Position numbers and translations under genes: made by a program
NCBI GenBank assembly: GCA_028281785.1
Contig: JANQJG010000152.1
Coordinates: 1 to 64,000 of the forward strand
DNA: 64,000 nucleotides
Reading direction: 5' to 3'
Source: Rhodospirillales bacterium
GTDB lineage: Bacteria > Pseudomonadota > Alphaproteobacteria > Rhodospirillales > Shumkoniaceae
Part shown: positions 56,178 to 64,000 of the stretch, piece by piece
Layout: every line of letters begins with the position of its first letter
Position numbering within the stretch: the stretch's first letter is position 1
Notes under the pieces: generated by a model
Told to the model about the DNA's origin: nothing
Databases searched by the model: none
What the model saw: the letters and a program-made list of their open reading frames with translations, nothing else

Positions 56178-56225
56178 GTTGCCCGAAGCGACCGCCAATG
56201 AATTCAGGCGTCGAGGAGAGTGACC

Positions 56226-57440
56226 ATGGCTGGATTTGAGATTTTCGAGACCGGGCGGGCGCCAGTCAAGGCGTGGGTCAAGGGCGTCCCCGTCGAGGAC
56301 GAGGCCCGGCGTCAGTTGGAGAACATCGCCCGCCTGCCCTTCGTTCATTCGCATGTGGCGGCGATGCCCGACGTGCATCTGGGCAAGGGTGCCGCCATTG
56401 GCTCGGTGATTGCCACCCGCGACGCGATCATCCCCGCCGCGGTGGGGGTCGACCTCGGCTGCGGCATGATGGCGATGCGCACCAGCCTGACGGCGGAGGA
56501 CCTGCCGGATAGCATGGCCGAGATACGCTCCGACGTTGAACGGGCAGTACCCCATGGCGGCATCGGCCTCAAGGGTGGCTGGAAGGACGGTGTGCCAGAT
56601 GCGGTGGCCAACCGTTTCGCGAAGAGCGGTCTCGCGGAAAGGCTGACGCGGATTCAGGCGAAGCACGAGAAGATCGTGGGTGCGAACGATGTGGTGCATC
56701 TCGGCACGCTGGGAACTGGCAACCATTTCATCGAGATCTGTCTCGACGAGGCGGATCGGGTGTGGGTCATGCTGCATTCCGGCAGCCGCGGCATCGGCAA
56801 CCGGATCGGCACCTATTTCATCGCCGAGGCCCGGGAGATGCTCCTCAGGCGTGAGGGCGCGGCGTCCGTTCCCGACCGGAACCTCGCCTGGTTCGCGGAA
56901 GGTGAACCGCTGTTCGACGACTATGTCGAGGGCGTGCTTTGGGCGCAGGACTTCGCGCGGGAAAACCGTGAGGTGATGATGGAGCGGATTCTCCATGTCC
57001 TACGCCGGCGCCTGCCGACCTTCCGGGTCGAGAAGGCGGCCGTGAACTGCCACCACAACTATGTGGAGCGGGAACGGCATTTCGGCACCGAGGTCTGGGT
57101 CACGCGTAAGGGCGCCGTTCGCGCCCGGGAAGGGGATCTGGGAATCATCCCCGGATCGATGGGCGCCAAGTCCTTCATCGTGCGTGGGCTTGGCAACCCG
57201 GACTCGTTTTGCTCCTGCTCGCATGGGGCGGGCCGGACCATGAGCCGGACGGAGGCGAAGCGGCGTTTTTCGATCGCGGACCATGAGGCAGCGACCACGG
57301 GAGTCGAATGCCGCAAGGATGCCGGCGTCATCGACGAGACGCCGGCCGCTTACAAAGACATCGACGCCGTCATGGCGGCACAAAGCGATCTCGTGGAGGT
57401 TCTGCACACGCTCAAGCAGATCGTCTGCGTGAAGGGATAG
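56226..57440 (+). CDS. rtcB: RNA-splicing ligase RtcB family protein
   Basis: The 404-residue protein ligates 2',3'-cyclic phosphate and 5'-OH RNA ends using GTP and Mn. Conserved blocks include MPDVHLGKGAAIGSVIATRD, AVGVDLGCGMMAM, HLGTLGTGNHFIEICLDEAD, AVNCHHNYVERERHFG (metal-binding His) and SHGAGRTMSRTEAKRRF with the guanylated His. The usual short bacterial RtcB size (about 400) fits. A GTG at 56220 is an alternative start. The terminator upstream separates it from the EEP gene. No rtcA or rtcR is seen in the window. Confidence 0.95.
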   Translation: MAGFEIFETGRAPVKAWVKGVPVEDEARRQLENIARLPFVHSHVAAMPDVHLGKGAAIGSVIATRDAIIPAAVGVDLGCGMMAMRTSLTAEDLPDSMAEIRSDVERAVPHGGIGLKGGWKDGVPDAVANRFAKSGLAERLTRIQAKHEKIVGANDVVHLGTLGTGNHFIEICLDEADRVWVMLHSGSRGIGNRIGTYFIAEAREMLLRREGAASVPDRNLAWFAEGEPLFDDYVEGVLWAQDFARENREVMMERILHVLRRRLPTFRVEKAAVNCHHNYVERERHFGTEVWVTRKGAVRAREGDLGIIPGSMGAKSFIVRGLGNPDSFCSCSHGAGRTMSRTEAKRRFSIADHEAATTGVECRKDAGVIDETPAAYKDIDAVMAAQSDLVEVLHTLKQIVCVKG

Positions 57441-57636: not shown

Positions 57637-58629
57637 ATGTTGCGAATTCTGACCCCCATCGGATTGATTCTTGGCCTCGTAATCGCCGTGGTTCTCGTAA
57701 CCTTGCACGGATATGAGGCCATCACCCGCGATCTGGCTTCGCTGGGCTGGGGAGTCGCATTGCTGCCGCTCGCCTTCCTACCCGATATCCTGTGTGCGGC
57801 ATTGTCTTGGAGGATGTTGTTTCGGCCGGGCCGTGCGCCAGGATTGGCGACGACCATAACGGCCAGATGGATAGCGACGTCAGTAAACACATTGTTGCCG
57901 CTGGGCGGGGCCAGCGGCGATTTGGCGCGGCTTCGGGTCGTCATGCAGGCGGGGACAGCCGGAACCGATGCGGTCGCTTCCGTCGTTGTCGACAAGACGG
58001 TCGATGCGGTTACCCTGGTTCTTTGGGGGCTCATCGGGATCGGTTTCCTCGTCGCGAAAGAGGCCGATGGCGCCCTGATCGGCGGTGCGTTCTCGGCCTC
58101 GGTGCTATTGGCCATCGGCGTCGCCGGCTTCGTCATGGTGCAGCGCGCAGGAGCTTTCGGCTTTCTCGCTCGCCGTATTTTCGGGTCCAACACGAAAAAA
58201 ACCATGACCGAGATCGTCGAGAGCGCCGCCGATTTGGATGCCACGATCCGATCGCTGTACGGCATGCCGATTCGGTTGCTCTTGTCCATTCTGTTGCGTC
58301 TTCTCGGCCGCATAGTGGTGAGCGTCGAGGTTTGGCTGGCAGTTGCTCTTATGGGGCAGGCGATCACGATTTGGGATGCGCTCATGCTCAGGAGCCTGAT
58401 CGGCGCCTTGCGTGGCGCGGCATTCTTCGTGCCGGGTGGCTGGGGGTTGCAGGAGGGTGGCTACGTCGTGATCGGCGGGCTGATGGGCTTACCGGCCGAT
58501 TTCATGCTCGCCGTTTCGCTGGCGACGCGCGGCCGCGAACTGCTGATCAGCCTTCCGGGTTTGCTCGCTTGGCAACATATCGAGGGCAGATCGCTGTGGA
58601 AACGGTATGTGGCCAAACGACGCCGCTAG
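57637..58629 (+). CDS. HpnL/LPG-synthase-TM (UPF0104) flippase-like membrane protein
   Basis: A 330-residue integral membrane protein with about eight helices. It contains the family landmarks SVNTLLPLGGASGDLARLR near residue 88 and AAFFVPGGWGLQEGGYVVIG near 265. These place it in the lysylphosphatidylglycerol-synthase transmembrane/HpnL group, whose members move or modify lipids. No aminoacyl-transferase domain is attached. It opens the right-hand set of lipid-like genes. The stop is followed directly by an inverted pair of CTAGAGCATT elements. Confidence 0.85.
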   Translation: MLRILTPIGLILGLVIAVVLVTLHGYEAITRDLASLGWGVALLPLAFLPDILCAALSWRMLFRPGRAPGLATTITARWIATSVNTLLPLGGASGDLARLRVVMQAGTAGTDAVASVVVDKTVDAVTLVLWGLIGIGFLVAKEADGALIGGAFSASVLLAIGVAGFVMVQRAGAFGFLARRIFGSNTKKTMTEIVESAADLDATIRSLYGMPIRLLLSILLRLLGRIVVSVEVWLAVALMGQAITIWDALMLRSLIGALRGAAFFVPGGWGLQEGGYVVIGGLMGLPADFMLAVSLATRGRELLISLPGLLAWQHIEGRSLWKRYVAKRRR

Positions 58630-58664
58630 AGCATTGTGTTATTAGGTATACTGTAATGCTCTAG
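58626..58664. repeat. Inverted pair of CTAGAGCATT elements
   Basis: CTAGAGCATT (58626-58635), overlapping the stop of the HpnL-like gene, and AATGCTCTAG (58655-58664) are perfect inverted copies with a 19-nt spacer. The same 10-mer occurs singly at 6961-6970 and 9221-9230, with variants at 8511-8520 and 16661-16670. It may act as a short terminator or dispersed repeat. Confidence 0.6.
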
Positions 58665-58677
58665 ACTAGGGAACACG

Positions 58678-59517
58678 ATGCATGAGCGACTTTCCTGGTC
58701 CAGGCAGTCATTGGTGAAGAAGACTCCGGCTCCAGACCGCGGGGCAGGCCGACGGCCCCATTTCATCATCCGCACGATCGCCACCAATCCCTGGTCGTCG
58801 TTTCTGGATGGCTTGGCTTTTCTTGGTTTTTTCCGTGTGGACACCGAAAAACTGAAGAGCCGCTACGCCTTCATCGACAACCGGATTCAGAAGGAATTCG
58901 AGGACATAGGAAAAGAGTTTCCCGAAACCTATAGAGTCTCTCTGCCCAACATCTCGCGCTTGGAGCGCGACAGCATGGCGGACTTCAAGTCAAAAAAGGT
59001 CTCCATAAGAAAAAATAAGATGGACGACTACTGGATATTTTTCCATGAATTAAGCAAATGCATCGTTAAAAGCGTTCCAGAAAAATCAAATCGATTTTTT
59101 ATTTTAACGACTGTCTACCATGCGCTCATACATGGTATGTACAATGCAGTGATCCACGGCGATCCGGACGCTGACATCGAACTTCGCATCGATGTCAGTG
59201 CGACGGCCGTAATGCTCGAGATGGGGAACAAGGTCGGTCCGGGTAACGACAAGCCAAGGCAGTACTACACAGGCGTCGGCATCCATGTCGGCGGTGGAGG
59301 AAACACCGGGGACACCCTCGCGCAGCTGTTCGATCAAGCTGAACTCCGCGTCGAAGAACAGGGCAAACGAGATGAAACAGGTCGCGTCAAACTGGTCTTG
59401 AGGCACGACCTGAAGCCGCGGTCATGGTCCGTCAACTTGAAGAGAGCCTTTCTGGCCCATGCGATCGGCACACGAGACCGGCGGCAGCTGCACCGCATGT
59501 CCAAGGCGTATATTTAG
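58678..59517 (+). CDS. Orphan GHKL-type ATPase-like protein
   Basis: A 279-residue protein with no signal or sensor domain. Residues about 147-161 (HALIHGMYNAVIHG) resemble the N-box of histidine-kinase-type ATPases, EMGNKVGPG (about 181-189) the D-box region, and TGVGIHVGGGGNTG (about 198-210) the lid. A strand pair (VEEQGKRDETGRVKLVLRHD) follows. The aspartate of the D-box is replaced, so nucleotide binding is not certain. The stretch 58975-59115 is AT-rich compared with its neighbours, hinting at acquisition. Neither kinase nor anti-sigma function can be assigned. Confidence 0.55.
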   Translation: MHERLSWSRQSLVKKTPAPDRGAGRRPHFIIRTIATNPWSSFLDGLAFLGFFRVDTEKLKSRYAFIDNRIQKEFEDIGKEFPETYRVSLPNISRLERDSMADFKSKKVSIRKNKMDDYWIFFHELSKCIVKSVPEKSNRFFILTTVYHALIHGMYNAVIHGDPDADIELRIDVSATAVMLEMGNKVGPGNDKPRQYYTGVGIHVGGGGNTGDTLAQLFDQAELRVEEQGKRDETGRVKLVLRHDLKPRSWSVNLKRAFLAHAIGTRDRRQLHRMSKAYI

Positions 59518-59570
59518 AGACAGGTGAGAACGCCCTGCCGGCATGCTGACAAGAGGCTCCGAAAATCAAG

Positions 59571-60581
59571 TCACTCTAAGTGTTCGGTGGGCGCAACCCC
59601 TTGGCGTGGGAGCGGGTTCTGTCTGCGCCATTCGTCGAAGGCAGATGTGGTACGCACACAACCCACCGTGCAGGTCTCATGACACGACTTGGGCGTGAGG
59701 AACTGATCACGCAAATCGTCCAGACTGTACTCGCTTAGATCGCGCGTGAATGCGCCCCGGGTCTGGGAGCACCAATGCACGCAACCGTGCTCGTCGACGT
59801 ACAGATATCGGGCGCCCGCGCGGCATTTGAACGGTGCCCTCCCGGTCCGTATGAGCTGCCTGCGATAGGCGTCCGCATCTTCGAGTCGGCCACGAATTCG
59901 GCGCTTCACCTTGCGATAGGCCTCCCGTTCCTCGACTGACAGGTTCAGCTGACCGGACTCGTCATGCAAGAGCAGGACACGCGGGATGAAACCATGGTCT
60001 TGTGCGAAGTCGATCACTTCGAGCGCCTCTTCGGGCGGCGCACTACCGATCACCGCGCTCATGACGACCCGGAAACGAGCGTGGCGAGCTAATACCTCGA
60101 GGCGCCGCCTGAGCGGCTTCAGCGTCTTGACGGTTGATCGGGTCGGCTCCACGCCGTCGACGCTGATCTGGAGATCGGTCAGCCCACTCGCGTTCAGCGA
60201 CTCGACGAGCTCGCGGGTCAGCCGATAGCCGTTCGTGATCATCTGCCGGCGCCGGAAACCTAGATCACGTAGCGCCGCCACGAGATCGGGAAGCCGCGGG
60301 TGGAGTGTGGGTTCGCCGCCCGTAAGACATACCGCCCATGTCCTCAGTTCATGGAGCTTCCGAAAGCGCTCGAGCAGCTCCGGAAAAGGCACCGGCTCGG
60401 ATGTCCTGTCGTATTCTGAACAATAGCTGCAAGAGAGGTTACAGCGCCGGACGATGACCGTCTGCGCGAGAAAAGGCCCGAAACGCAGCCAGCCCAACCG
60501 TCCGATGCGGGCGGTCGGAGTTTCCGTCGCCGTGCTCGATGGCTCGGAGAGGCGGTGTTCCGCTGTCAATTGATTATCCAC
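59571..60581 (-). CDS. Radical SAM enzyme with C-terminal Cys cluster
   Basis: A 336-residue enzyme from the GTG at 60581 (SD AAGGAA upstream). The CNLSCSYC motif at residues 47-54 ligates the SAM-binding 4Fe-4S cluster. CLTGGEPTLHPRL and the ISVDGVEP segment are standard radical SAM features. The C-terminus carries extra Cys (FKCRAG, VHWCSQ, CHETCTVGC), similar to a SPASM/twitch-type auxiliary cluster. It resembles the MoaA/PqqE-like group. The substrate is unknown. The start overlaps the end of a small upstream open frame by 8 bp. It is convergent with the GHKL-like gene. Confidence 0.82.
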   Translation of the reverse strand: MDNQLTAEHRLSEPSSTATETPTARIGRLGWLRFGPFLAQTVIVRRCNLSCSYCSEYDRTSEPVPFPELLERFRKLHELRTWAVCLTGGEPTLHPRLPDLVAALRDLGFRRRQMITNGYRLTRELVESLNASGLTDLQISVDGVEPTRSTVKTLKPLRRRLEVLARHARFRVVMSAVIGSAPPEEALEVIDFAQDHGFIPRVLLLHDESGQLNLSVEEREAYRKVKRRIRGRLEDADAYRRQLIRTGRAPFKCRAGARYLYVDEHGCVHWCSQTRGAFTRDLSEYSLDDLRDQFLTPKSCHETCTVGCVRTTSAFDEWRRQNPLPRQGVAPTEHLE

Positions 60582-60873
60582 GCCGTTGTGTTCCTTCCAC
60601 AAGTCGTTCGGGCGCGAACCGATCAACGATTAGACGCACGTCACCTGGAAGGATCAGGTTACAGGGCGCCGGCGTGTCAGCGATAAATAGACTACGGGCC
60701 CGCGCCTGAAAGTTGTCAGGCGTATGCGTAACGTTTGAACCCACTCCGACATCAAAGCCAGGCACGACATAAGCACGATTGCCGGAAACGGCGCCGACGC
60801 ATCTCATAGAAAGGAAGGTTGGCCTGAAATGACAAGTATTTCCTGGCCGCGTGAAATTGCGATCACCTATCAA
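60574..60873 (-). CDS. Possible small protein overlapping the radical SAM start
   Basis: A 99-codon frame on the radical SAM strand ends 8 bp into the GTG of that gene, an arrangement typical of translational coupling. It contains protein-like segments (YVVPGFDVGVG, NLILPGDVRLIVDRFAPERL). However, no start has an SD, third-position GC is low for this genome, and the product matches no known family. It could be a RiPP-type partner of the radical SAM enzyme or simply an untranslated frame. Confidence 0.25.
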   Translation of the reverse strand: MIGDRNFTRPGNTCHFRPTFLSMRCVGAVSGNRAYVVPGFDVGVGSNVTHTPDNFQARARSLFIADTPAPCNLILPGDVRLIVDRFAPERLVEGTQRRG

Positions 60874-61147
60874 ACTGTTGACCGTGCAGCCGACCGCATC
60901 GCTCTCATCCAGGTCTCGTCGGCGTTTTCGCGGTTTTGAAGCCGGCCGCCGGCCCCGTTTGTGGTGCCGCCAAATCGTCGGTCCAGCATGCCTCGCGGGT
61001 CGAACCGATCCCTATCCAGTCAGCGTCGGTACGGTGATGCCTCCTCTCGGACAGATCACGAGTTCCTGACTTGATTCGCATCGCTTGTCGCCCATTTCAT
61101 TTTGGAATGTCATAAAATCACCCTCAAACCGTCATAAAAGATTCCTC
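60627..61147. other. 521-bp gap with lower-GC sequence
   Basis: Apart from the uncertain small frame on the minus strand, no gene is supported in this gap between divergent genes. It presumably holds promoters for the radical SAM gene and for the nucleotidyltransferase gene. No hairpin or known motif was noted. Confidence 0.4.
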
Positions 61148-62020
61148 ATGTCACAGATGAACGAAAGCCGATGCGGTCATTCAATCGGCCCGGATACCGC
61201 TGTGATGCTGGCTGCGGGGCGGGGCGCCCGGCTTGAACAGGCATCGGGCGGCGTTCCGAAGCCTCTCATCCAAGTCGCCGGGCAAACGCTGGCTGAGCGG
61301 GCCGTCGTATCGTTGCAGGTCGGCGGAAGGATCGAGCGGGTCATCGTCTGTGTCGGTCATGAGGCCGAGGCCGTCACCGCGCATTTCGATGAACTAGGCC
61401 GGCGCTACGGCCTTGCGATTGAATGCGTCACAGTTTCGGACTGGCCGCTGGGTAACGGGACGAGCGCGCTTGCCGCGCGGGAGCGTCTTGGTCGGGAGAC
61501 GTTCTTGTTGTCCATGACGGACCATATCTTCGACCCGGACATCGCCCGGATGCTTGTGAGTTATCCCTTGCAACCGGACGAAATGGCTCTTGCCATCGAC
61601 CGAGACAAGGACGGGATCTTCGATCTTGAGGATGTGACTCGTGTGCGGTTCGAGAACGGAGGGATTCTGGCCATCGACAAGAACCTCGAAGAATGGGACG
61701 CGGCCGACACGGGTGTGATGATTTGCAGTCGCGGGCTGTTCGACGGGCTGGAACGGGCGGCCGCCAAGGACCGGCACGGCTTGTCGGACGGGCTGCGCGA
61801 GCTGGCCAAGCAACGCCGGGCGAAGACCGTCGACGTGACGGGAAGATATTGGATTGACGTCGATACGCCCGAAGCCCATCGTGAAGCGGAAAATCAAAGT
61901 ATTGTCCGAGCGGCATTCGACGCTCGTTCCGGTTCGTTGGATCCACTTTACGATGCGACATATCGCTTGGGCTTCGCCGCCGGACGCATGGCCAACGGCA
62001 TTCGAAAGTTCTTGGCCTGA
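61148..62020 (+). CDS. Sugar/alcohol-phosphate nucleotidyltransferase (IPCT/phosphocholine-cytidylyltransferase type)
   Basis: The 290-residue protein has the NTP_transferase signature VMLAAGRGARLEQASGGVPKP at its N-terminus, GHEAEAVTAHFDELG, the metal-binding FLLSMTDHIFDPDI, DTGVMICSRG and IDVDTPEAHREAE. This is the MobA-like cytidylyltransferase form used for inositol-1-phosphate or phosphocholine activation. The next gene encodes a CDP-alcohol phosphotransferase, so it probably makes a CDP-activated head group. The ATG at 61148 has no SD, and 61157 is an alternative. Confidence 0.85.
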   Translation: MSQMNESRCGHSIGPDTAVMLAAGRGARLEQASGGVPKPLIQVAGQTLAERAVVSLQVGGRIERVIVCVGHEAEAVTAHFDELGRRYGLAIECVTVSDWPLGNGTSALAARERLGRETFLLSMTDHIFDPDIARMLVSYPLQPDEMALAIDRDKDGIFDLEDVTRVRFENGGILAIDKNLEEWDAADTGVMICSRGLFDGLERAAAKDRHGLSDGLRELAKQRRAKTVDVTGRYWIDVDTPEAHREAENQSIVRAAFDARSGSLDPLYDATYRLGFAAGRMANGIRKFLA

Positions 62021-62059
62021 GTACAGGCCCCGTGGCTCCGACATACCGGGCGCACCGGA

Positions 62060-63364
62060 ATGCCCCCATCGGAGTTTGAAGGCCTGCCCCACGACGTGAT
62101 CGTTTGGAATACCCCGACTATGAAGGAAAGACGCGGTCTTCTCGTGATTCAGCCGATGGTCGGATCCGACAGCCTCGGAGCAGACACCAGCGTGCTTGGT
62201 CTGCCGTTGGTTCGCCGCGTCGTCCTGTCTGCGAAATCGGCGGGCTTTAAGCGGATTTTCGTGTCGGCTCGCGATGTTGCCGGAACTCGGGAAATTTTGC
62301 ACGAGACGCCAGCGATCGTCATCGCCGCAGGGGAGCCTGTCCCCACGGACGGCCTGCCCCGCATCGTCGTGCTCGCTGGGAATATCCTGCCGAGCCAAGC
62401 TTTGTTGCGCGATTTGCGGGAGTGGCGTCTCGAGTCCGGGCAGATGGAGGTCGAATCCGGTGCCGTGGCGGTGATCGAAACGGATCACGGCCGTCAGACC
62501 CTTGAACTGCCGATGCCCAAGGTGTCGGACCCATTAGGACTAGAACTGTGCGGATTGCCCGCAGCCCTGGACGGCAAGCTGCGGACACGAGAGCGTCAAG
62601 TGATTGACGGCGACAGCTTGGTCATAACGCCAAGCACGACTAGGTCAGATGTCGAAAAACACCTGCTTGGCGGCCTAGTGAAAGATACCGATGGGTTTAT
62701 GGCTCGTCACTTTGCACGTCCGCTCTCCTTGGCGTTGACGCGGCGGCTCGTGGCGACGTCCGTGTCGGCCAACGCAATGACGGTGTTCAGCGTTCTCATC
62801 GGTCTCCTCGCCGCCCCTTTTTTTCTGTCATCGACTCCGTCGGTGCAACTGACCGGCGGGCTGCTATTCGTGCTTCACTCGATCGTCGACGGCTGCGACG
62901 GTGAGCTCGCCAGGCTCCGGTTCATGGAGTCGCGCTTTGGCGGACTACTGGACTACTGGGGCGACAACATGGTCCACGTTGCCGTCTTCTCGTGCATGGC
63001 CGTGGGATGGGGCATCGACATCGGGGCGTCATGGCCACTTTGGGCCGGTGCCGCTGCAGTTGCCGGAACCCTGGCTTCAGCCGGGTTTGTTTATTGGCGC
63101 ACAATGCGGATTGAAAACGTCCCGGGGCCCGTATTCACAACGGTGTCTCGGACAGATCGTTCGGGTCTCACAAAGATATCGGACGCCTTGGCGCGTCGCG
63201 ACTTCATATACCTGGTCGTAATTCTGGCGGCTTTTGGCAAGGCAGCATGGTTCCTGGCCTTAACGGCGGTTGGCGCGCCTCTCTTTTTCGTGACGCTTCT
63301 GGTTATCGCGATGAAAGAGAACAAAACGAGCGAGATTCGCATCCTCAGCAAACAAGCTGAGTAG
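62060..63364 (+). CDS. CDP-alcohol phosphatidyltransferase with N-terminal nucleotidyltransferase-like domain
   Basis: A 434-residue membrane enzyme; the ATG at 62120 (MKERRGLL) is an alternative start giving 414. The CDP-alcohol phosphotransferase motif D-G-x2-A-R-x8-G-x3-D-x3-D is complete in DGELARLRFMESRFGGLLDY and the following WGD, flanked by about six helices. The N-terminal about 190 residues (LPLVRRVVLSAKSAGFKRIF, GLPRIVVLAGNILPSQALL) look like a degenerate nucleotidyltransferase fold, reminiscent of fused IPCT/DIPPS enzymes. It is 39 bp after the nucleotidyltransferase gene and probably uses its CDP-linked product. Confidence 0.85.
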   Translation: MPPSEFEGLPHDVIVWNTPTMKERRGLLVIQPMVGSDSLGADTSVLGLPLVRRVVLSAKSAGFKRIFVSARDVAGTREILHETPAIVIAAGEPVPTDGLPRIVVLAGNILPSQALLRDLREWRLESGQMEVESGAVAVIETDHGRQTLELPMPKVSDPLGLELCGLPAALDGKLRTRERQVIDGDSLVITPSTTRSDVEKHLLGGLVKDTDGFMARHFARPLSLALTRRLVATSVSANAMTVFSVLIGLLAAPFFLSSTPSVQLTGGLLFVLHSIVDGCDGELARLRFMESRFGGLLDYWGDNMVHVAVFSCMAVGWGIDIGASWPLWAGAAAVAGTLASAGFVYWRTMRIENVPGPVFTTVSRTDRSGLTKISDALARRDFIYLVVILAAFGKAAWFLALTAVGAPLFFVTLLVIAMKENKTSEIRILSKQAE

Positions 63365-63748
63365 AAGCCGTCATAGAAGACCGTAGAAAATCCTCCCGCC
63401 ACTCGTCTGATGTCAGCAGACGACGCATTTTTGGCTCCCTTGCCGATCGACATTTAATTGTCACACAACTTTCAAAGCTTGGCCTCCAGCGCGCGTTAAG
63501 TTGGTAGATGGGTGGACGCAACGGGCGGCATTCTCTCGAATTTCCAGGCCTTGCCGCCTTTTCTCTTGTTTGCCCCGAATCGCCCTGATGACGGGCGTTG
63601 TCATCTTCATGGCGACATTCACGACGAGTATTATCGGCGACCGGCTGAGGGACCGGCCCGACGCCACCAGCCGATAGCCGGCTATCCATCGACCCGAAGC
63701 GCTTTCCGTGCGGAACAACGCGGCCCATGACCTGGAGGACGAGAAACG
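63365..63748. other. 384-bp gap before the terminal phosphatase gene
   Basis: There is no supported gene here. A 29-codon frame (63588-63677) with a hydrophobic stretch lacks an SD. Nothing else is recognisable. Confidence 0.4.
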
Positions 63749-64000
63749 ATGGGAGCGAATAAGGCGGTAATCTGTGTTTTTGACGGGCTCCGTCCAGACC
63801 GCGTGACCGAAGCGCTGACCCCGAACCTGTGGCAATTCGCAACCGGCGGCACCTGGTTTCGCGAGTGCCGCTCCGTCTTCCCGTCGGTGACCCGAGTGGC
63901 GGGAGCAAGTTTTGCCACCGGATCCAAGCCCGCGACCCACGGCGTCGTCAACAATGCCTTCTTCCATCCCGCCGTCATCGGGGACCGCCCCCTCGATACC
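63749..64000 (+). CDS. Alkaline-phosphatase-superfamily enzyme, 5' part only
   Basis: The ATG at 63749 lies 11 nt after GGAGG, and the frame stays open to the window edge (84 residues). The sequence KAVICVFDGLRPDRV holds the first metal-binding Asp, and FPSVTRVAGASFATGSKPAT followed by HGVVNN is the nucleophile region (Thr or Ser) of type I phosphodiesterase/nucleotide pyrophosphatase-like enzymes. It probably acts on a phospho- or nucleotide-linked substrate of the preceding lipid-like pathway. The rest of the gene is outside the window. Confidence 0.85.
   Translation, partial: MGANKAVICVFDGLRPDRVTEALTPNLWQFATGGTWFRECRSVFPSVTRVAGASFATGSKPATHGVVNNAFFHPAVIGDRPLDT

Follow-up and report, generated by a model that had tools for sequence, protein, structure and literature searches.

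The right edge of a 64,000-base stretch of DNA from a Rhodospirillales bacterium (the window: the first 64000 bases of the 65458-base contig C66) appears to hold part of a pathway for a phosphoinositol head group, with a hopanoid, bacteriohopanetetrol, as its probable acceptor; taken as a whole, we regard this reading as evenly balanced between right and wrong. Hopanoids are the sterol counterparts of bacteria and are widespread as fossil biomarkers. An earlier note, made from the sequence alone, had picked out five features here (a cytidylyltransferase-like enzyme, a CDP-alcohol phosphotransferase, an HpnL-like flippase, a radical SAM enzyme and the start of a phosphatase/pyrophosphatase) and proposed that together they activate, transfer, move and trim a phospho-alcohol, with no substrate visible. 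Profile searches and open reading frame (ORF) calls recover all five, and comparison with related loci upholds activation, transfer and movement for a core of cytidylyltransferase, phosphotransferase and HpnL; a substrate can also be proposed, since linkage of this core to MIPS (inositol-3-phosphate synthase) points to inositol phosphate.

A predicted CDP-inositol-forming enzyme and its partner phosphotransferase

The first core gene encodes a predicted CTP:inositol-1-phosphate cytidylyltransferase (IPCT; 61148, the likely start, to 62020, + strand), which matches PF12804 (E 2e-13), carries an intact LAAGRGARL...PKPL motif and finds its best solved structures in Archaeoglobus fulgidus IPCT (4mnd and 2xme, E ~1e-21). 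Its best NCBIfam model is the cytidylyltransferase half of NF041135, the archaeal fusion of IPCT with di-myo-inositol phosphate (DIPP) synthase, or IPCT/DIPPS (E 7e-34); the score is 117.5 bits against a cut-off of 580, and the model spans a two-domain fusion, so a single-domain protein is not expected to reach it. In a tree of cytidylyltransferase domains the window's protein lies within a 24-row clade (support 100/100), every other row of which adjoins MIPS or is fused to it; in nine loci MIPS and cytidylyltransferase form a single polypeptide, and the domains fused to the phosphonate enzyme PepM fall in a separate clade of the same tree. Because its clade-mates are all MIPS-linked or MIPS-fused, the enzyme most likely makes CDP-inositol from inositol phosphate, which on these sequence relationships is a strong candidate for the pathway's substrate.

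Two other members of this tree deserve mention in their own right. The MIPS-linked clade includes a trio on a Sphingomonas parapaucimobilis plasmid (L007:10050-12717), consisting of a CDP-alcohol phosphotransferase, an inositol-3-phosphate synthase and an NTP transferase, which could be relevant to the inositol or phosphohexose sphingolipids of sphingomonads. A metagenome-assembled genome (MAG) labelled Anaerolineae (Chloroflexota; L120/L121) carries a MIPS-cytidylyltransferase fusion near-identical to that of an alphaproteobacterial MAG, probably on a mislabelled or misbinned contig.

The second core gene (62060-63364, +) encodes a 434-aa CDP-alcohol phosphotransferase that scores over the PF01066 cut-off and has a complete catalytic motif, D277xxD280GxxAR...G294xxxD298xxxD302 (62888-62965, +), whose catalytic residues are invariant among 48 aligned members. 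The protein has six membrane helices, preceded by a degenerate nucleotidyltransferase-like domain on which the earlier note was silent (approximately residues 25-204; 62132-62671, +); this domain resembles IspD, GlmU and MurU-type enzymes in structure and has no LAAGxGxRL...PKPL motif. Both domains of an AlphaFold model (pLDDT 88.8) match the archaeal protein AF2299 (Z 28 over 326 residues, 22% identity), with IPCT/DIPPS and PIP synthases next, and the window's sequence resembles the other half of the archaeal IPCT/DIPPS model through its membrane part alone. The simplest history would be that of a fused ancestor in which the nucleotidyl domain degenerated as a separate copy assumed its role.

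One substitution bears on the acceptor. PIP synthases are thought to grip the phosphate of their inositol-phosphate acceptor with the final Arg of an RxxR motif (PMC4634129). Aligned with AF2299, AfDIPPS and PIP synthases, the window's RRDFI segment (63194-63208, +) places Ile383 at this second-Arg site, and Ile occupies it in 47 of 48 family members, the residue of one member being undetermined and none having Arg; the Arg is retained in AfDIPPS (RDER), in AF2299 (RDFR) and in a fused cytidylyltransferase-phosphotransferase of archaeal IPCT/DIPPS type from a relative of the same order (genome G037; RDVR). Because Ile replaces this second Arg, the acceptor of the window's enzyme is probably not an inositol phosphate. 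The G037 fusion itself (L046:5727-8517) stands beside MIPS, and DIPP synthesis in that relative is possible.

Recurrence of the core with MIPS and hopanoid genes

A scan of about 85,000 species genomes yielded 124 phosphotransferase-family loci in about nine phyla, of which 80 were retained, from Alphaproteobacteria, Zetaproteobacteria, Methylomirabilota, Rokubacteria, Nitrospirota, Nitrospinota, Acidobacteria, deltaproteobacterial lineages and Elusimicrobia. MIPS is the commonest enzyme partner, present in 46 of the 80 loci; an HpnL-like gene occurs in 52 (46 within 5 kb), HpnN in 20 and any Hpn-type gene in 58, and these neighbour counts are lower bounds because many contigs are short. Cytidylyltransferase matches in the same loci include weak ones. 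The earlier note had suggested searching for MIPS near the window, and the enzyme proved prominent in other genomes and went undetected in the window's own. The note's five-gene, co-conserved pathway holds in part: cytidylyltransferase, phosphotransferase and HpnL-like genes are repeatedly associated in many phyla, so the lack of co-conservation that the note had named as its refutation does not apply to these three of the five, but close homologues of the radical SAM enzyme occur in only 3 of 49 phosphotransferase-carrying genomes and the phosphodiesterase has none among the related loci surveyed.

Among 398 genomes across the phylum, full-length phosphotransferase homologues are confined to the window's genome and to a second family, in which eight genomes have one and the relatives with names are Zetaproteobacteria / Mariprofundus MAGs; four genomes of the window's own family have no full-length member. 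In the loci of the closest phosphotransferases (L064 and L066) MIPS directly follows the gene, at the place where the window has its phosphodiesterase. On a secondary replicon of Burkholderia cenocepacia, a member of a culturable genus, a CDP-alcohol phosphotransferase (unannotated), an HpnL homologue and a cytidylyltransferase stand in a row and make up a relative of this gene set (L186:12022-15324).

The earlier note had made no connection with hopanoids, which emerges here from relatives in several phyla. We searched the 49 carrier genomes, mostly MAGs and counted without correction for relatedness, for squalene-hopene cyclase and MIPS, finding the former in 46 (44 over cut-off) and the latter in 45. 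In the phylum sample, where 47 of 398 genomes have a cyclase, all nine phosphotransferase carriers do (Fisher p 4e-9, uncorrected for kinship). In 12 of the 49 carriers (ten Rokubacteria, one Methylomirabilis and one Hyphomicrobiales MAG) no more than 10 kb separates MIPS from the cyclase; in those loci that we read MIPS sits between HpnM/HpnL and HpnN, three of them also having a cytidylyltransferase and a second CDP-alcohol phosphotransferase. The rokubacterial clusters run HpnA-HpnG-HpnH / cyclase-HpnM-(cytidylyltransferase-phosphotransferase)-(HpnL)-MIPS-HpnN, and a Zetaproteobacteria contig (L063) runs cyclase-HpnG-HpnN-HpnA-HpnL-radical SAM-TPR protein-phosphotransferase-MIPS-cytidylyltransferase; the association of inositol synthesis with hopanoid genes thus takes more than one form. 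Two Elusimicrobia MAGs (the genomes of L118 and L142) likewise combine a cyclase over cut-off with MIPS and the phosphotransferase.

A separate set of genes lies in another genome (L031/L167; G029 contig C57, 64001-98000). There a PEP mutase-cytidylyltransferase fusion (TIGR02320 over cut-off), a phosphonopyruvate decarboxylase and three CDP-alcohol phosphotransferases, together with HpnL-like and HpnN genes, adjoin HpnA-HpnH-HpnG-cyclase, making a phosphonate head group on hopanoids possible for this locus; L032, L035 and L038 hold comparable fusions along with several phosphotransferases. A broader proposal, which we advance tentatively and consider somewhat less than evenly poised, is that the hopanoid clusters of many uncultured bacteria would encode phospho-hopanoids made by a CDP-alcohol route, in one set through MIPS-linked phosphoinositol and in another through PepM-fusion phosphonates, with HpnL flipping both.

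The window's genome (G000; 5.24 Mb in 254 contigs, completeness 97.5%) has a hopanoid locus of its own on contig C171, with cyclase, HpnG, HpnH, HpnA and HpnN all over their model cut-offs, and a second full-length squalene-hopene cyclase on contig C121. The third core gene of the window (57637-58629, +) encodes a 330-aa, flippase-like membrane protein of the HpnL family (PF03706; TIGR03476 240.2 bits against a cut-off of 195.65). It does not lie inside a hopanoid cluster; a second HpnL is present in the genome, and in same-family genomes HpnL adjoins HpnI/HpnK-like genes.

Proposed pathway and its alternatives

We propose a route that would begin with the conversion of glucose-6-phosphate to inositol phosphate by MIPS, an enzyme not detected in this assembly. 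The cytidylyltransferase would then form CDP-inositol, from which the phosphotransferase would move phosphoinositol to an unphosphorylated lipid alcohol, probably a C35 bacteriohopanepolyol (bacteriohopanetetrol, for example) at its terminal hydroxyl, giving a phosphoinositol-hopanoid. HpnL would flip the product and HpnN/HpnM would carry it outward, with the radical SAM enzyme as an optional tailoring step. What the comparisons establish are the protein families, their motifs, the co-conservation and the linkage to hopanoid genes. That the acceptor is a lipid we hold with moderate confidence; that the lipid is a hopanoid, the most likely acceptor because of gene linkage, is again a prediction of moderate strength, and we put forward the transport roles of HpnL, HpnN and HpnM only weakly.

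Several observations weigh against this proposal, chief among them the lack of any MIPS match in a 97.5%-complete genome by PF07994, TIGR03450 or a Zetaproteobacteria MIPS protein query; the latter two were added since PF07994 alone is weak for actinobacterial-type MIPS (it missed that of C. glutamicum, which is among the TIGR03450 controls). The genomes of four other carriers, all alphaproteobacterial (those of L088, L089, L092 and L117), also gave no MIPS match. Contig C66 stops 237 bases after the phosphodiesterase gene, so the assembly could lack a linked MIPS, which may be hidden in the gap that follows; inositol phosphate may instead come from salvage, or the substrate may no longer be the same. 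Beyond this, the window's genes are unlinked to the C171 locus, HpnL being the sole hopanoid gene on the contig; many of the HpnL-like neighbours elsewhere score under the TIGR03476 cut-off, and kinship is uncorrected in the carrier counts above. The window's phosphotransferase has six membrane helices, whereas lipid-acceptor enzymes of the family are described as usually carrying three or four additional ones; AF2299, the nearest solved relative, was observed with CDP-glycerol and is described as not acting on lipids (PMC4634129). In the open-licence literature we found no phosphoinositol-hopanoid, nor any other inositol or phospho head group on hopanoids.

The chief rival, unlikely in our judgement and yet the one to be taken most seriously, is a Kennedy-like synthesis of phosphatidylinositol, in which CDP-inositol would meet diacylglycerol or another ordinary lipid alcohol and the hopanoid link would reflect shared membrane-lipid islands and transporters. 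Heaver et al. 2022 (PMC9246714) predicted such a route for Bacteroidetes, where MIPS, NTP transferase, CDP-alcohol phosphotransferase and HAD hydrolase genes cluster close to a lysylphosphatidylglycerol-synthase-like gene; in Parabacteroides, genes for NDP-sugar synthase, CDP-alcohol phosphotransferase and HAD hydrolase stand together, and the lost acceptor-phosphate Arg would suit any unphosphorylated alcohol. The Parabacteroides enzymes are, however, only distantly similar to the window's (26% over 199 aa; 28% over 64 aa), and a Kennedy-like route predicts neither MIPS in or beside hopanoid clusters, as in 12 of the 49 carriers, nor a cyclase in 46 of them.

We think it distinctly improbable that, in this genome, the genes have ceased to serve MIPS-made inositol and the pair activates some other phospho-alcohol (perhaps one freed by the phosphodiesterase), uses salvaged inositol phosphate, or is the remnant of an acquired island. 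Apart from the missing MIPS, here and in other alphaproteobacterial carriers, such explanations draw on the lower GC of the region, a serine recombinase 3 kb upstream and the absence of full-length family members from the four same-family genomes; yet both enzymes are intact, with complete catalytic motifs, the cytidylyltransferase nests in a MIPS-linked clade, and the contig breaks off where a linked MIPS could have gone unassembled.

A soluble product made by the DIPP synthase reaction, such as the osmolyte di-myo-inositol phosphate, would account for the match of the window's two proteins to the two halves of archaeal IPCT/DIPPS, and a six-helix topology is typical of soluble acceptors. DIPPS, however, needs an inositol-phosphate acceptor, and the sequences examined lack the Arg with which PIP synthases presumably bind such an acceptor (RDFI here, RDER in AfDIPPS); moreover, the window's phosphotransferase family groups apart from AfDIPPS, AF2299 and the G037 fusion, and its partners are lipid transporters and hopanoid genes. 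DIPP synthesis was accordingly rejected on the loss of the acceptor Arg, and we rate it very improbable. To a chance assembly of unrelated neighbours we give next to no credence: co-conservation is lacking for the phosphodiesterase and a 279-aa ORF and rare for the radical SAM gene, but for the core genes the idea is contradicted by the recurrence of cytidylyltransferase, phosphotransferase, MIPS and HpnL-like genes together in many phyla.

If the phosphoinositol-hopanoid reading is true, a charged, inositol-bearing class is added to the hopanoids, HpnL gains a testable role, and inositol lipids are predicted in Rokubacteria, Methylomirabilota, Zetaproteobacteria and others. The expected bacteriohopanetetrol-phosphoinositol, C41H73O12P ([M-H]- m/z 787.4767 and [M+NH4]+ 806.518, with inositol-phosphate fragments at 259.022 and 241.012), would be searchable in existing environmental lipid data.

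Relation to known systems

The earlier note had recognised no known pathway with its exact five-gene set; the pathway is not a five-part one, and a predicted Bacteroidetes route, with distantly similar sequences, resembles its core. That inositol-lipid cluster (PMC9246714) shares MIPS, an NTP transferase, a CDP-alcohol phosphotransferase, CDP-inositol logic and a nearby flippase-like gene, but has a HAD hydrolase in place of Hpn partners and diacylglycerol as its proposed acceptor, and its CDP-inositol route is itself unconfirmed in that work.

Archaeal IPCT/DIPPS (4mnd, 2xme) has in common with the window the cytidylyltransferase family, a likely CDP-inositol intermediate, the phosphotransferase fold and, in relatives, partnership with MIPS. 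By contrast, the window has two separate proteins, its phosphotransferase has neither a cytidylyltransferase motif of its own nor the acceptor-phosphate Arg, and the neighbours of its family are lipid and hopanoid genes. Archaeoglobus AF2299 (4o6m, 4o6n, 4q7c) likewise joins a cytidylyltransferase-like domain to six helices, but is only 22% identical to the window's protein and has RDFR where the window's family has RDFI.

Hopanoid clusters (cyclase, HpnA-HpnN) count HpnL among their members, and HpnN, HpnM, HpnG, HpnH and the cyclase accompany the same inositol genes in relatives. The known hopanoid head-group steps, by HpnO and by HpnI/K/J, add an amine, sugar or cyclitol, and a 2025 survey of alphaproteobacterial hopanoids calls the function of HpnL unestablished and does not mention inositol (PMC12583986). 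PntC-type phosphonate pathways (PMC6697681) also rely on nucleotidyl activation of a phospho head group, and a hopanoid locus from the same order contains PepM-cytidylyltransferase fusions; the phosphonate cytidylyltransferases, unlike those of the MIPS-linked set, form a clade separate from the window's protein.

Other genes and composition of the right edge

The 351-aa radical SAM enzyme (59571-60626, - strand; PF04055 E 2e-21) has a CxxxCxxC motif and five further conserved cysteines (C268, C286, C315, C319 and C323) that are kept in relatives, a pattern that suggests an auxiliary iron-sulfur cluster, perhaps of SPASM/twitch-like type. None of the 25 best NCBIfam families listed reached its cut-off; identification as HpnH or HpnJ was rejected, neither model being among those 25 and HpnH sitting elsewhere in the genome. 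A Rokubacteria homologue placed directly behind HpnL (L098) shares 65% identity with the enzyme, and Zetaproteobacteria homologues from hopanoid loci share 34-35%; in those loci of the two groups that we read, the gene adjoins or stands near HpnL, and it is an accessory partner of HpnL outside the conserved core.

The type I phosphodiesterase / nucleotide pyrophosphatase (63749-64000, +), seen by the earlier note as a gene start, is complete once the contig is followed rightwards, as the note had advised: it continues to contig position 65221 and encodes 490 aa (PF01663 E 8e-29 for the whole protein). With no homologue among the related loci, it too stands outside the conserved core. Between the HpnL and radical SAM genes lies an orphan 279-aa ORF (58678-59517, +), passed over in the earlier note, for which Pfam, NCBIfam and plasmid searches gave no match and which has no counterpart in the loci examined.

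The lower GC that had been reported for this edge is borne out for the last three 2-kb bins of the window (57.0, 60.3 and 59.8%, against ~64% elsewhere) but is not unique to it, two further bins being equally low. A serine recombinase (PF00239; 53921-54571, -) lies near the lower-GC region, ~3 kb upstream of the HpnL gene, and the region may have been acquired. Also upstream, an RtcB-family RNA ligase of 406 aa (56220-57440, +) matches best, within NCBIfam, a model of relatives that contain an intein, for which this copy appears to lack the length.

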